This document shows, one piece after another, positions 10,770 through 24,384 of a stretch of 24,384 bases of DNA. Location of the stretch: the IMG/VR virus record IMGVR_UViG_3300023172_000190, positions 1-24,384 of that record; one strand, 5' to 3'. The DNA comes from a virus. Under the pieces are notes generated by a model. It was not told where the DNA came from, ran no database searches, and saw only the letters and a list, made by a program, of their open reading frames with translations. The translations under genes were made by a program, and so were the position numbers. Position 1 is the first letter of the stretch; each line of letters opens with the position of its first letter.

Positions 10770-12047
10770 CTATCTACCAACCTCACCTAGATATTTTTCT
10801 TTAGTTTCTTCCCAAGATAGGAAACATATATCATCATAAAATAAGGTTTCTGTTAGATTGGCTCTACCATTATTCACCAGATTTGTAATTCTTTTTCTAG
10901 CATATTTTGTTTTCCACAACTCTGTCAAAGCTTTTGTAGATGTATCAATGCTTTTTACTAGGTCTTTTTCTTCTATTTCGCCTCTAAGGAATTCTCGTGT
11001 ATTATCATATAAAGGTGCATAATAGATACCTCGTTGGTGATCACTACGAATGATATCTTTAGGTATATCTAACTTAGAGTATATGAAATGTCTCATTCTA
11101 TTTCTATGATCTCTTTTTAGGGTTTGACCATTCTCTCGTTTAGCAACATATAAAAGAAAGTATCTATCGTTGTAATGTTTCTCAGCGTACTTCAACATTT
11201 CTTTTTCTGTATCTTTGGTCAATTCGTATGACAATGAACCTGAACTAAAGCCCATTTTTTTCCAATGAGTAAGTCTATCATATTGTGATAATCCACCTGT
11301 TTTAGATTTACCATATAATGATGTGGTGGTTACAGAAACCAAAACATCACCATAGTTTTCTTTCCATTGTTTTTGAATATCATCGGACAAACACAATAAA
11401 GCCAACAATTTGCCACCTGTATAATTGAATCCTAAAGGCTGAAGAGGCACAATAGTTGAACCAATACAAGAATTGTTTAGTTTACCACTGTTAGTTTTGT
11501 ATTCTCTCTCCCAACCAATATAATCGTCTCTTGGTGTTAGATCAATAAAATCTCCTGTAATACAGATAACTCCTAGATATTTACCAGTTCCTTTGTCTCT
11601 TACTAGATAATGTAGATTACGACCTATATTAGAAGAATTTTTCATAGTAGAGGTAAATGTCCTAACACAATTCCATTTTTCAGTTAGTGTACCTGCTGAG
11701 TTATTGTCTTTCAAACTATCTGTATAAATCAGTTCAGGTTCAAGTGCTTCGAAATCCATAGGATCTTCTGGAAACCAAATGTTTGCTTTAGATTCATTGA
11801 TAAGTTTTAGATGATTTTCATTTACAAACTGTTTCTCTTCACCGAACAATGTGCCTATGTTCTGAGTTGGATACTTCATATGTATTTCCAACCACTTTTG
11901 ATAGAGAGTGTATTCTTCTACTCCCATTTTTGAGACAAAAGATAGGTCTTCTATGATTCGATCACGAAGCTCTTCTTTGGGTAAAACATCCTTCTCTACA
12001 TAATTTGCTTGATATTCATCAAATTGTTTTTTTACAAATGGTTCCAT
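10770..12047 (-). CDS. DruA-like (DUF4338) protein, copy 1
   Basis: 425 residues. The central region follows the Druantia DruA/DUF4338 pattern: LGVICITGDF (159-168), RDDYIGW (173-179), then IVPLQPLGFNYTGGKLLALL (199-218), KQWKENYG, TTTSLYGKS (240-248) and SQYDRL...MGFSSGS. Canonical relatives have R-D-x-x-I-G-W, then an IlPwV..p.LAS stretch and a TFVD...Y.AanW..lG segment in the same order. The N-terminal 120 residues and basic C-terminal half are specific to this protein. The family includes the DruA subunit of an antiphage system and transposon-associated proteins; its biochemistry is unsettled. A second, divergent copy lies at 20027-21157. It follows the gp41 helicase with only a two-base gap. 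Function in the phage unknown. Confidence 0.72.
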   Translation of the reverse strand: MEPFVKKQFDEYQANYVEKDVLPKEELRDRIIEDLSFVSKMGVEEYTLYQKWLEIHMKYPTQNIGTLFGEEKQFVNENHLKLINESKANIWFPEDPMDFEALEPELIYTDSLKDNNSAGTLTEKWNCVRTFTSTMKNSSNIGRNLHYLVRDKGTGKYLGVICITGDFIDLTPRDDYIGWEREYKTNSGKLNNSCIGSTIVPLQPLGFNYTGGKLLALLCLSDDIQKQWKENYGDVLVSVTTTSLYGKSKTGGLSQYDRLTHWKKMGFSSGSLSYELTKDTEKEMLKYAEKHYNDRYFLLYVAKRENGQTLKRDHRNRMRHFIYSKLDIPKDIIRSDHQRGIYYAPLYDNTREFLRGEIEEKDLVKSIDTSTKALTELWKTKYARKRITNLVNNGRANLTETLFYDDICFLSWEETKEKYLGEVGR

Positions 12048-19762: not shown

Positions 19763-20027
19763 TTTTTATTTGTTCCTGTAATAATTCAATTAGGATATCT
19801 CCCATAATCTTATTTAGTTCACTATTATTTAGTAGTTTGTCAATCTCTTCATCTGTCTTATCTTCAACTATATCTGGCAATCTTCGTATGGTTCTTTGAA
19901 AATTTATGTTCGGTTTACCATCTTCGAATTGTACTTTGCCATATTGATACACTAGACCTTTGTAATCACCTTCTATAATTTCTATAGCGGCATCTTTTTC
20001 AAATGGATTTTCAACTATTCTATACAC
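19722..20027 (-). CDS. Conserved small phage protein
   Basis: 101 residues. MYRIVENPFEKDAAIEIIEGDYKGLVYQYGKV is a pattern I recognise from short proteins of T4-like marine phages; the rest has INFQRTIRRLPDIVED and a helical C-terminus (LNKIMGDILIELLQEQI). No activity known. The start overlaps the DruA-like stop (TAATG), and the 3' end overlaps the lysozyme start by 41 bases, so the three genes are read from one message. Confidence 0.7.
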   Translation of the reverse strand: MYRIVENPFEKDAAIEIIEGDYKGLVYQYGKVQFEDGKPNINFQRTIRRLPDIVEDKTDEEIDKLLNNSELNKIMGDILIELLQEQIKNEQRTIERTDKKA

Positions 20028-21157
20028 TATCTTATAATATCTATTTCACCTGGATTTTCATTCCAAACTTCTAATTTATTTCTAAGTCTTCCGTCTGAAA
20101 GTAATGTTTCGTATCTGTTTGAAGCTTTCTTTCTCCACCATTCTGTTAGATTTTCAATTGAATATCTATCATAGTTTGATTTAGGTATAAGTGTTTCTGT
20201 TTTTCCTAAAATAACATCTTTTGTATTTTCAAAACCTAAATCAGAAACATAGAATCTTTTCTTTTCATTTAGTCTTCTAGCATCATCAACAACTTTATCA
20301 AATTCTTTTTTATCATTCTCATTCAAAGACTTTCTGATTATAGAAATCATTTTAGATTGTGATTTCATTTTCCTAGATGATGCTTGTTCCCAAACAATCG
20401 GACCACCATTCTTTTCAACAAAGAACTTTTCTAAATCTTTGAAGTAATTATCATTCATAAGTGGTGCAAAATTACTATCAGTCAAACCATGTCCTTTTAT
20501 AAATGGTTTTAGACCATCATACTGTGACATACTTTTAGTTGAACCATAAAGTGATGTAGTTTCAAAATGACATAGATTCATATCATACTTTTCATCAACT
20601 AGTTTTTTTATTTCATGTGAACAACACATGAGTGCTAGTAGTTTGCCACCTAGATAGTTGAATCCAAAAGGTTGAGTTGGAACTATTATCATTCCCATGA
20701 TAGCATGTTTATTGAATACAGGCATTTGTTCTGCACCCAACACTTCACCAAAATACCTATTTCTAGGTGCAATGTTCATCATAGGTGAACCTAGTCTTAT
20801 AAAACCCACAATCTTATTTGTGTTTGTTTCATAAACCATAAGAATGAGTTTACGACCAGGATTTGATGCTTCTATAGCATGTGATGTTATGATTTCTAAG
20901 TAGTTATGAAAGACCTCATGATCTGCAATACCAACTCTAAAGTTCATGTCTCTTGGATGTATAGTGAAGTCTGAAAAGAAATCATCTGATAGATTGAAAC
21001 CAAAAAGAGGAGTTGGCATTTCTGAAACTCTTTCTAATTTTATTTTTCTTAGATAGTCTGCCATATTACCGAAGTTTTGGTAATACTCTGTGATTCTACC
21101 AGAGGCAAACTTTGCGTCTGCCTCTGATAGGACTAAATCACATTTGAAATCTGGCAT
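20027..21157 (-). CDS. DruA-like (DUF4338) protein, copy 2
   Basis: 376 residues. It shares the central module of the protein at 10770-12047: IVGFIRLGSP, RNRYFGE (132-138), IIVPTQPFGFNYLGGKLLAL (157-176), a VDEKYD stretch, FETTSLYGST (198-207) and SQYDGL...KGHGLTDSN. Outside this core the two are very different, so this is an old duplication or two independent gains. The core follows the DruA/DUF4338 family, known from Druantia antiphage defence and transposons. It is coupled to peroxiredoxin by a TAATG overlap, a context with no obvious DNA-transaction partner. Phage role unknown. Confidence 0.72.
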   Translation of the reverse strand: MPDFKCDLVLSEADAKFASGRITEYYQNFGNMADYLRKIKLERVSEMPTPLFGFNLSDDFFSDFTIHPRDMNFRVGIADHEVFHNYLEIITSHAIEASNPGRKLILMVYETNTNKIVGFIRLGSPMMNIAPRNRYFGEVLGAEQMPVFNKHAIMGMIIVPTQPFGFNYLGGKLLALMCCSHEIKKLVDEKYDMNLCHFETTSLYGSTKSMSQYDGLKPFIKGHGLTDSNFAPLMNDNYFKDLEKFFVEKNGGPIVWEQASSRKMKSQSKMISIIRKSLNENDKKEFDKVVDDARRLNEKKRFYVSDLGFENTKDVILGKTETLIPKSNYDRYSIENLTEWWRKKASNRYETLLSDGRLRNKLEVWNENPGEIDIIR

Positions 21158-21654
21158 TAGATATTATCTAAGAGATTTTCTGGTGAAGATACTTCATAAG
21201 GATCAGTTTCAATGTTGTCACCAAATCCTTCTTCTGCAAAGATTGATTCAATTACATTATCATTGACGACCATTGCATATCTCCATGATCTGATACCGAA
21301 ACCTAAGTTTGCTTTCTTTACAGATGCACCCATAAGCTCGGTGAATTCACCGTTACCGTCTGGTAATGGTCTGACATTTTGAACGCCTTGTGCCTCAAAC
21401 CATGAGTTCATAACGAATGAGTCATTCACTGAGAGACAATAGATGTTATCAATACCTTTTTCCTGAAACTGTGAAAACATTGTTTCAAAACCAGGTAATT
21501 GAAAAGACGAACAAGTTGGTGTAAAAGCACCAGGCAGTGCAAAGATGATCACTCTTTTTTCTGCAAATTGTTCGTGGGTGTTCAAATGTACCCAATCGCC
21601 ATCAGCCCTTACTGGCATAACGACATTAGGAATTTTATCACCTACATTCAACAT
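21157..21654 (-). CDS. Peroxiredoxin (Prx5-like)
   Basis: 165 residues. It reduces hydrogen peroxide or organic hydroperoxides with a peroxidatic cysteine. PGAFTPTCS (41-49) gives Thr45 and Cys48, and RSWRYAMV (122-129) supplies the active-site Arg. SVNDSFVMNSW and the Gly-rich LGFGIRS also match Prx5-type proteins. Cys73 might act as a resolving residue or a glutathione system might serve. No signal peptide, so cytoplasmic. It has a strong AGGAG Shine-Dalgarno. Its position between hsp20 and the DruA-like gene suggests a stress-response pair. Peroxiredoxins are infrequent in phages. Confidence 0.92.
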   Translation of the reverse strand: MLNVGDKIPNVVMPVRADGDWVHLNTHEQFAEKRVIIFALPGAFTPTCSSFQLPGFETMFSQFQEKGIDNIYCLSVNDSFVMNSWFEAQGVQNVRPLPDGNGEFTELMGASVKKANLGFGIRSWRYAMVVNDNVIESIFAEEGFGDNIETDPYEVSSPENLLDNI

Positions 21655-21720: not shown

Positions 21721-22137
21721 TTACTTGATTTTGATAAGTTGTGGTTTATCTTCTTCTGGCACTACTCTCTCTAGGTTGATAATCAAAACACCATTCTTTA
21801 GATCACCGCCAACGACTAGTACATCATCAGCAAGTGTGAATGATCTTTTGAAAGACCTAGAGGCTAGTCCCTTATGAAGATAAGACTCATCTTCACCACT
21901 TTCTTTTTTGCCTTCAATTGTTAGAACATTTTTCTCTTTTGAGACTTTAAGTTCTTTTTTATCAAACCCAGCAACAGCAAGTTCAATGCGAAAATGTTCG
22001 TCATCGTCCTTGATAATGTTGTAAGGTGGATAATTAATAGAAGGTGCCTCTGCGGCTCTTTCTAGTAGTGAAAAGGTTCTGTCGAACCCTATGGCAAACG
22101 GAAATGTTCGCCCAAAGATATCGTCATAAATAGACAT
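21721..22137 (-). CDS. Small heat-shock protein (Hsp20, IbpA-like)
   Basis: 138 residues, ATP-independent chaperone that holds unfolding proteins. The alpha-crystallin domain (about 38-126) is complete: YNIIKDDDEHFRIELAVAGF, LTIEGKKE, FKRSFTLADDV and the conserved GVLIINLERVVPEE. The C-terminal LIKIK provides the I-x-I-like tail for oligomers. Hsp20 genes are frequent in T4-like cyanophages and relatives. AAGGAG precedes the ATG. A perfect TATAAATA lies about 60 bases upstream, and a strong hairpin follows the stop, ahead of peroxiredoxin. Confidence 0.94.
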   Translation of the reverse strand: MSIYDDIFGRTFPFAIGFDRTFSLLERAAEAPSINYPPYNIIKDDDEHFRIELAVAGFDKKELKVSKEKNVLTIEGKKESGEDESYLHKGLASRSFKRSFTLADDVLVVGGDLKNGVLIINLERVVPEEDKPQLIKIK

Positions 22138-22231: not shown

Positions 22232-22615
22232 TCAACCCATTTTTTTACAATTTTTTCGCTTTTTTACTCTTTCTAAAACTAAAAGATTATTGAACACCAC
22301 TGCAATCATCATTCGATTACCTGGTCTGAATACATCTTGTTTCTCTTCATCTGTCAATGTTGTGTTATTCTGTAATACTACTGGCACCCATGCTAACCAT
22401 TTTGTTTTGTGAGTAAGTAGATCATTCAAATCAGGTTTTCTAGGTAAAAGAGGATTAGTTTCATAGACACATTCGTATTTCATACCCTCATAGGTAGTCC
22501 AAATGTCTAAGACTTGTAGTGTCCAAAAAAGTTCTTGTGGTGATAAGAGAGAAGGCTCTTTAAATTGTATAGACGGTAATAGATTCTGACTTTCCTTTAA
22601 CTTGGATAGAATCAA
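22232..22615 (-). CDS. Hypothetical protein downstream of the cyclase (start uncertain)
   Basis: The part beyond the cyclase stop codes about 109 residues, with hydrophobic patches ELFWTLQVLDIWTTYEGMKYE, KWLAWVPVVL and MMIAVVFNNLL. DxWTTY followed by ETNPLLPRKP resembles small membrane proteins of unknown function (DUF5658-like). No ATG lies near the cyclase stop. I chose TTG at 22615, with AGAGGAG twelve bases upstream and a 56-base overlap. The frame stays open to an ATG at 22858 whose product would begin with a good signal peptide (YLALMSVLVSTQAHA), but that overlaps the catalytic part of the cyclase by about 300 bases. Confidence 0.5.
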   Translation of the reverse strand: MILSKLKESQNLLPSIQFKEPSLLSPQELFWTLQVLDIWTTYEGMKYECVYETNPLLPRKPDLNDLLTHKTKWLAWVPVVLQNNTTLTDEEKQDVFRPGNRMMIAVVFNNLLVLERVKKRKNCKKMG

Positions 22616-24384
22616 CTCGTTTGAAATCTCCTCTTTTACACTGTTGATGAGTGAACTCCGATAACAACACTCGAACCCCATTGTAATTGCGAGTCTGGCC
22701 TTCGAGTCGAGAGGCAAGGTTGACTGCATCTCCAATGACTGAATAGTCGAATCGAAGTTCTGAACCCATGTTTCCGACAATGCATGTGCCTGTGTTGATA
22801 CCAATACCGACATCAATGCGAGGTAAACCTTGTTCTTCAAGTTCTTGTATAAGTTCATCGGCTTTCTTTGATATCTCTATTGCAGCCTCTACTGCTTTGT
22901 CGGCATGGTCTTCACAATCGAGTGGTGCATTCCAGAATGCCATGATGCAATCACCCATATATTTATCGATTGTACCATTGTATTGTAATACGATTTTGGT
23001 CATTGTGTCAAGGTACTTATTGATAAGGTTTACAAGTCCCTCTGGATCATTATTGTTCTTATAGTATTCTGAGACTGGTGTGAACCCACAAATGTCCATA
23101 AACATGAATGTCATCTCTTTACGATCACCACCAAGTCTGAGTTTACTTGGATCTTTCTGCAGTTCTTCAACCATATCAGGAGATAAATATTTTTGGAACT
23201 GCTTCTTAATTTGTTCCTTGAGTTGATAAGTCACATAGTATTTGTTGAAAGAAGCATGACCAAAAACCAATAAGGAACTAATTGATGAATAAAAAGTATC
23301 AAAAAGAATTAGATGCTCATTCCAAATATAGTAACCCAATCCCACCTGACCTGCAACAACACCTAGACTCCCTATCGCCGATACAGTTGTGGGAGTTTTG
23401 TAGACCACAAGAAGTATACCTAAAAGAACTACCACAAGAAGAACAACTTCAAGTAATTCAAGATAGTAGGATTGTTGTATTTGAACTTCTTGTAAAACGG
23501 TTTGGAGAATTGAGGCTTGCACTTCGTGGGGATACATTACACCCATTGGGGTTGAAACTGGATTATTCAGACCCTCTGCCGTTAGACCCCATATCAGAAT
23601 CTTATTATTGATATCTGAGTCTGCAAGTTCAGAGGCGGAAATAGAGTCGAATTCATTCCAATAAGAGATCATTATATCACTTGTTGGTGTTGTGTTGATG
23701 GGTGGTTGTCTACCCATTCTTATCCATTCTATGCCTAATTCAGGCACAACTCTTGTCTGATAACTAGGTTGATCAAAGTATGCTCTCAATGTCTCTAATG
23801 CGATTGACGGATACACTTGATCATTTGCCATCACAAGTAATGGTGCAGAACGAACTGTACCATCAAAGTTTGCAGTACCCTTTTGTGCAGGTGTAGAAAC
23901 AGTTACCCCTACACCATATGTGTTGTCTCTGAGTATGGGTATGGGTGATGAAATGCCTGGAAACTTCCAAATAGAATCTTCAATTGAACCACCACCAAAT
24001 ACAGATGTGGGTACATAAGGTGCTGAACCTGTATCAAGTTGTGTTGTGGGTGCAGAACCTATGATCGTTAGACGATTGATAAGTCCTTCTGCAAATGCTA
24101 AGTCACCACCAAATCTATCTGGTTCACTAAACACAATATTGAATACATGTGTGTTTGTTGGATCTGTTTGTAAGAGTATGTCTCTATAGATGTTTCTCGG
24201 CCATGGATACTGACCATACTTCTGTAATGACTTTTCATCTATGTCTACAAGAACAATATCTTGTACATGAACTTTTTCTTTTTGTTGATGAAGAAAGTCA
24301 AACCATGACCACTGTATATTTTCAACAATGTATGGTGACCATATTTTGAGACCGACTAGAAGACCAATGGTTACTAAGACTGTT
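22560..24384 (-). CDS. CHASE2 domain adenylate cyclase, class III (5' end outside window)
   Basis: The frame stays open through the window edge, so the N-terminus is missing; 607 residues are visible. The first visible stretch (TVLVTIGLLVGL) looks like a membrane helix. A CHASE2 sensor domain follows (VLVDIDEKSLQKYGQYPWPR, later YPHEVQAS), then three membrane helices (about 227-290, counting from the GTG at 24134) and the cyclase. Metal-binding Asp347 (MFMDICGFT) and Asp395 (KYMGDC), adenine-selecting Lys391 and Asp463 (RFDYS), and Asn472/Arg476 (NLASR) are all present, so an active ATP cyclase making cAMP is expected. The topology puts the sensor outside the inner membrane. Such receptors are bacterial; one in a phage is unusual. 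Confidence 0.92.
   Translation of the reverse strand, partial: TVLVTIGLLVGLKIWSPYIVENIQWSWFDFLHQQKEKVHVQDIVLVDIDEKSLQKYGQYPWPRNIYRDILLQTDPTNTHVFNIVFSEPDRFGGDLAFAEGLINRLTIIGSAPTTQLDTGSAPYVPTSVFGGGSIEDSIWKFPGISSPIPILRDNTYGVGVTVSTPAQKGTANFDGTVRSAPLLVMANDQVYPSIALETLRAYFDQPSYQTRVVPELGIEWIRMGRQPPINTTPTSDIMISYWNEFDSISASELADSDINNKILIWGLTAEGLNNPVSTPMGVMYPHEVQASILQTVLQEVQIQQSYYLELLEVVLLVVVLLGILLVVYKTPTTVSAIGSLGVVAGQVGLGYYIWNEHLILFDTFYSSISSLLVFGHASFNKYYVTYQLKEQIKKQFQKYLSPDMVEELQKDPSKLRLGGDRKEMTFMFMDICGFTPVSEYYKNNNDPEGLVNLINKYLDTMTKIVLQYNGTIDKYMGDCIMAFWNAPLDCEDHADKAVEAAIEISKKADELIQELEEQGLPRIDVGIGINTGTCIVGNMGSELRFDYSVIGDAVNLASRLEGQTRNYNGVRVLLSEFTHQQCKRGDFKRVDSIQVKGKSESITVYTI

Follow-up and report, generated by a model that had tools for sequence, protein, structure and literature searches.

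What would a T4-like marine phage do with a membrane receptor adenylate cyclase? The window analysed here, a stretch of 24,384 bases that is the entire IMG/VR virus record, ends in a minus-strand gene that runs off its edge, and which a first-pass annotation took for a CHASE2 receptor joined to a class III nucleotide cyclase. The locus raises the question of whether such a gene belongs to the phage at all and, if so, what its product would sense and where its cyclic nucleotide would act. The open reading frame (22560-24383, minus strand) is open at the 5′ window edge and encodes 607 amino acids. Its closest full-length relative, on contig L003, begins MYSWKTVLV, and ~5 N-terminal residues are therefore absent from the window copy. 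The gene and the parts of its product are:

22560-24384, minus strand: predicted CHASE2 receptor adenylate cyclase gene, 5′ end lost at the contig edge, last gene of the window
23409-24359, minus strand: CHASE2 sensor region with N-terminal transmembrane helix (residues 9-325; PF05226, 3e-34; model helices 2-33, alpha/beta 38-298)
23196-23468, minus strand: three long helices (residues 306-329, 332-357 and 363-396; AlphaFold2 model)
22566-23126, minus strand: class III cyclase catalytic domain (residues 420-606; PF00211, PDB alignment, residue table and fold match)

The full receptor-cyclase layout proposed by the first-pass annotation was borne out by two routes. Pfam placed CHASE2 over residues 9-325 (3e-34; 119 bits against a cut-off of 26) and Guanylate_cyc over residues 422-604 (9e-22), while an AlphaFold2 model built from 47 relatives (mean pLDDT 88.6) comprised an N-terminal helix (2-33), a periplasmic alpha/beta domain (~38-298), three long helices and a cyclase fold (420-606). 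Both Pfam and model topology thus place the protein among CHASE2 receptors, with the extracytoplasmic PF05226 domain lying between an N-terminal helix and C-terminal membrane helices. In the model, the three-helix region reads as two or three membrane helices plus a signalling helix that leads to the catalytic part. From end to end, the protein matches PHROG 35576 (1e-178), a phage family whose function is not annotated. The catalytic domain matched the folds of Pseudomonas aeruginosa CyaB (3r5g, TM 0.87) and Spirulina CyaC (1wc1, TM up to 0.87), which share its class IIIb catalytic fold and adenine site of Lys with Thr/Ser, and differ from it in their regulatory domains.

The residues expected of a working class III enzyme, two metal-binding aspartates and a transition-state Asn and Arg, were identified in the residue table and by fold match, together with the two positions that recognise the base:

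23094-23096, minus strand: Asp430, metal, catalytic domain
22962-22964, minus strand: Lys474, adenine recognition, catalytic domain
22950-22952, minus strand: Asp478, metal, catalytic domain
22740-22742, minus strand: Ser548, second adenine-recognition position, catalytic domain
22719-22721, minus strand: Asn555, transition-state, catalytic domain
22707-22709, minus strand: Arg559, transition-state, catalytic domain

Asp430, Asp478, Lys474, Asn555 and Arg559 were invariant across the lineage of the window (76/76) and that of Pelagibacter phage HTVC008M (75/75), so the active site is as intact as first annotated. The Lys/Asp adenine pair of that annotation survives in its first member only, as the second residue is Ser548, which aligns with a Thr of P. 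aeruginosa CyaB and of OaPAC in an alignment with PDB sequences. A Lys paired with Thr/Ser at the purine-recognising positions is the class IIIb pattern, and Lys474/Ser548 conforms to it. The six-residue signature of the window cyclase is common to 72 of 80 bacterial CHASE2 cyclases, and guanylate cyclases differ at the Lys position, which is Glu in the Cya2 alignment. The adenylate reading, and with it the adenine-type selectivity originally proposed, is therefore good as far as sequence can tell, and the window protein should make cAMP from ATP. Activity may not be universal among its relatives: in the third viral lineage, that of the OM43 phage Melnitz (Melnitz-type cyclases, L254-L333), 76 of 77 sequences carry Asp at the 548 position and Ser in place of the transition-state Asn, so activity or substrate may differ there.

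A cyclase gene that is cut by a contig end and resembles bacterial CHASE2 cyclases could derive from the host, or from chimeric assembly at that end. We consider this vanishingly improbable, since 242 viral relatives in three lineages, chosen by similarity, were recovered, two of them in isolate genomes, and since the gene on L003, 96% identical to that of the window, lies on a 56-kb contig with T4-type genes on both sides. There, a clamp, a clamp loader and regA precede the cassette described below, and Hsp20, peroxiredoxin and DNA polymerase genes follow the cyclase. Host or chimeric origin is refuted by such intact relatives, and the placement in a T4-like genome made by the first-pass annotation holds once the missing upstream sequence is supplied from L003. 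An unrooted tree, its sequences sampled by best match, separated the three viral lineages from the bacterial cyclases included by a branch with full support. The dN/dS ratio of 0.06-0.14 indicates that the gene is under purifying selection. The cyclase is a genuine phage gene.

Neighbouring genes of the window are recorded here as observations in their own right. Peroxiredoxin and Hsp20 genes (21157-21654 and 21721-22137, both minus strand) come directly after the cyclase and its cassette and are kept in most relatives within the lineage. The phage also carries two DruA-like genes (DUF4338, Druantia) at 20027-21157 and 10770-12047, both minus strand.

The company kept by the cyclase lies just off the window, which is why the first-pass annotation missed it. 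In L003, between the T4-type genes and the cyclase, stands a curli (type VIII secretion) cassette whose usual order is csgF-csgG-curlin-FecR-curlin-cyclase, with the cyclase last, and the same order is found in the isolates HTVC008M, which infects SAR11, and Melnitz, which infects OM43. Genes for CsgF, CsgG and FecR occurred within 9.5 kb of the cyclase in 120 of 120 viral loci with at least 5.6 kb of upstream sequence, spanning all three lineages, and, from the other direction, all 13 loci anchored on CsgG that extend far enough downstream carried a cyclase; because loci were picked by similarity, these counts are conditional frequencies within these lineages and not among all phages. Three of the 120, L271-L273, have the cassette in the opposite orientation to the cyclase but still adjoining it; L271 and L273 were examined at the level of single genes. 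L003 and all 120 relatives thus carry the curli module known from pelagiphages, the window's own upstream sequence lying beyond its edge.

An adenylate cyclase in pelagiphage curli modules has been reported by Wittmers et al. 2022 (PMC9599517), and the cyclase itself is therefore not new; in the portion of that report available to us, podophage modules are sometimes without it. HTVC008M (AGE60353.1) shares with the window lineage the cassette order and the protein family (43% identity, with an alphaproteobacterial-type cyclase), whereas the window falls in a T4-like lineage of its own (67-77% identity within it) of which SAR11 may not be the host. The Melnitz cyclase (QZI94833.1; PMC9004378) has the same CHASE2-cyclase layout and curli/FecR context at 34% identity to the window, and differs by the two active-site substitutions given above. 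The Melnitz paper proposes a pore that times lysis, and mentions neither cyclase nor FecR in the text accessible to us. Two proteins of ~95 amino acids precede csgF (L003 5316-5612 and 5609-5896) and hold the same place in most relatives; each has one hydrophobic stretch and belongs to PHROG 18771, with weak similarity to holins. They take the slot of the one or two short 'histidine kinases' listed for the published module (PMC9599517, available portion), and no kinase domain was found in them.

Among the cassette genes, that of the FecR-domain protein offers the most direct clue to what the receptor would read. The phage protein consists of a hydrophobic leader, followed at once by the FecR domain and then by a C-terminal beta region, and its fold matched that of the anti-sigma factor PupR, specifically the periplasmic signalling domain (6ovk, E 5e-5). 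Pfam found no anti-sigma domain in it, and a further transmembrane-like segment was present in only 8 of 154 phage proteins. We reject an iron-dependent anti-sigma factor for a protein that lacks the usual arrangement of a cytoplasmic anti-sigma region at the N-terminus ahead of a membrane helix; without that region, 'iron regulator', as FecR is called in PMC9599517, is a poor label. At its C-terminus, 152 of 154 phage FecR proteins carry a curlin-like [IVLF]x[IVLF]xQ motif, against 6% expected in random internal windows and 1 of 34 bacterial FecR proteins; this is a short sequence motif alone, the fold search having returned no curlin fold there. FecR is probably the partner of the CHASE2 receptor, to judge from where the two are found. 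That link appears in neither PMC9599517 nor PMC9004378, as far as their available text goes, and the former mentions neither the CHASE2 domain nor FecR as a partner.

The same partnership recurs outside phages. Of 76 bacterial CHASE2 cyclase loci, at least 32 have a FecR-domain gene upstream, usually no more than 300 bp away; the count is a lower bound, as the locus edge truncates some of the large genes on that side. Several of these FecR proteins head large Bap/LapA-like adhesins with cadherin/Ig and RTX repeats. Published examples include a CHASE2 cyclase with a FecR neighbour in Campylobacterota (PMC9239204) and the Burkholderia BiofilmReg operon, in which a CHASE2 kinase accompanies a FecR-LysM protein (PMC5192318). 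Such operons set the same receptor beside an exported FecR-domain protein, but they have adhesins, phosphodiesterases or response regulators where the phages have curli export, and HMMs of phage CsgG, CsgF and curlin matched nothing near bacterial CHASE2 cyclases. In SAR11, a CHASE2 protein was present in 21 of 117 genomes, and at 17 of these 21 loci a FecR gene lay on the same strand, no more than 3 kb away; of the remaining four loci, three run into a contig end close to the gene. Here the same sensor pair has a different output, a SpoIIE-type (PP2C-type) phosphatase and not a cyclase, in both loci checked by Pfam. The SAR11 CHASE2/FecR loci are:

L354: 5969-7969 and 9363-11987
L355: 5109-6422 and 6477-8531
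L356-L373: further loci of this kind

FecR-CHASE2 is thus a recurring, portable sensor pair in which only the output varies: a cyclase in phages and Alphaproteobacteria, a phosphatase in SAR11 and a kinase in the published Burkholderia operons.

On balance we favour, with modest confidence, a reading of the cyclase as an inner-membrane receptor that forms the output arm of a phage-borne curli module. An infecting phage would make CsgG and CsgF together with a pair of curlin-repeat proteins and a FecR-domain protein that is secreted. The periplasm-facing CHASE2 domain would then read the state of FecR, whether free, in transit or attached to a growing fibre by the curlin-like strand at its C-terminus; from there the signal would pass along the three-helix linker to the class III domain, which would turn ATP into cAMP. 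The analysis shows the gene order, the domain content, an active site that is intact and constrained, and the recurrence of FecR with CHASE2 under differing outputs; we infer FecR as the ligand, the direction of regulation, and cAMP as the product. In the simplest model, FecR would carry fibre or export information to CHASE2.

The first-pass annotation had also raised interference with cyclic-nucleotide defences such as Pycsar, by the cyclase or its product. PADLOC models of the Pycsar cyclase PycC do match the catalytic domain (2e-25), but they match ordinary bacterial CHASE2 cyclases equally well or better, which marks the similarity as generic to class III. No Pycsar effector was found among the conserved neighbours of the cassette, and the protein thus has neither the specific match nor the linked effector of a PycC. 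Its adenine-type residues also speak against this role, and a receptor that sits in the membrane and is encoded among curli genes would make a poor decoy. An anti-defence function is therefore very unlikely, and the earlier suggestion finds no support.

A harder matter for the curli-module reading is who would respond to the cAMP. A SAR11 set was defined from genome G222, fixed by three 16S probe sites (probing of 385 genomes gave two candidates, and two more probe sites confirmed one), by taking 117 genomes of its order; the isolate relative HTVC008M infects a host of this order, which may not be that of the window phage's host. Neither class III (PF00211) nor class I (PF01295) cyclases were found in any of the 117, and seven genomes carried one divergent PF00027 cNMP-like domain each, fused to an acyltransferase in the one examined. 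A RecA control was found in 103 of 117, and the genomes are therefore mostly searchable. With cyclases absent and cNMP-like domains nearly so, there is no known cAMP reader in SAR11; nor was a phage-encoded cNMP receptor (PF00027) found in ten phage records, several of them incomplete. Clues to the host of the window phage itself come from single genes. In a near-complete relative, the capsid gene is closest to Melnitz and HTVC008M (65-67%) and the terminase to Phage C48C1; the window DNA polymerase is nearest cyanophages (49%), and a tRNA-Thr has at most 90% identity to SAR11, over part of the gene, which does not decide the host.

These counts are a difficulty for the first-pass proposal that the phage sets host cAMP, with the proviso that SAR11 may not be the host concerned. 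In its strongest form, a flood of cAMP would act through a CRP-type receptor to reprogramme transcription in the host, with no part for curli. The intact adenylate cyclase signature would allow this, and cNMP-binding domains were found in 10 of 10 marine and other bacterial genomes searched, which matters if the window phage infects something other than SAR11. Such rewiring leaves unexplained, however, why the cyclase always travels with the curli/FecR cassette in the loci of both surveys, and it has little to act on in SAR11; we regard it as unlikely. The cyclase might instead be a structural or regulatory passenger, kept for its CHASE2 part or for co-expression, with cAMP incidental or lost. 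The loss of the transition-state Asn in the Melnitz lineage and the want of a known receptor in SAR11 would fit that explanation, and both also count against the mechanism we propose, but invariant catalytic residues and low dN/dS in the window and HTVC008M lineages point the other way, and we think a passenger role improbable too.

Returning to the curli-module reading, cAMP may act directly on export machinery and not on transcription. In marine Alphaproteobacteria, a protein fusing a cNMP-binding domain to HlyD is encoded directly upstream of a CHASE2 cyclase:

L146: 5225-6940, cNMP-binding/HlyD fusion
L162: 2753-4477, cNMP-binding/HlyD fusion
L163: 5232-6956, cNMP-binding/HlyD fusion

This arrangement suggests direct cAMP control of type I secretion in those bacteria, and provides one precedent for an export machine as the target of cAMP. 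We offer more tentatively a wider proposal, possible though rather doubtful as it stands: that marine T4-like phages possess an autonomous trans-envelope signalling module in which fibre-linked FecR is sensed by the CHASE2 cyclase and cAMP works through a receptor not of the CRP type, in hosts otherwise without cAMP signalling.

The 3′ end of the cyclase gene holds a further feature of the window lineage, a predicted gene in the +1 frame:

22232-22858, minus strand: next gene, 208 amino acids, its first ~99 codons overlapping the cyclase 3′ end (22560-22858) in the +1 frame

Its product has a signal-peptide-like N-terminus and a weak DUF5658 match in the C-terminal half. The +1 frame was free of stops over the last ~96 cyclase codons in 76 of 76 members of the window lineage (39 groups differing by >8%), and open over the cyclase tail in none of 77 HTVC-type and none of 77 Melnitz-type sequences. 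When the tail was recoded synonymously, the frame stayed open in 0.04% of trials, and the other 96-codon stretches tested, in both alternate frames, were open in 0 of 76 window-lineage cyclases. Synonymous differences fell to 0.22-0.27 at codons 545-589, compared with 0.41-0.50 over most of the cyclase gene; the membrane region also had a low value (0.30), and the final 18 codons showed no such dip. From these sequence patterns, the overlapping gene is probably real.

In conclusion, what is new here is the FecR-CHASE2 reading, the overlapping gene and the finding that SAR11 has no known reader of cAMP. The strong conservation of the cyclase, though SAR11 hosts are without a recognisable cAMP receptor, poses a sharp question about the role of phage cAMP there. 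These phages have coupled a portable FecR-CHASE2 sensor pair to curli export.
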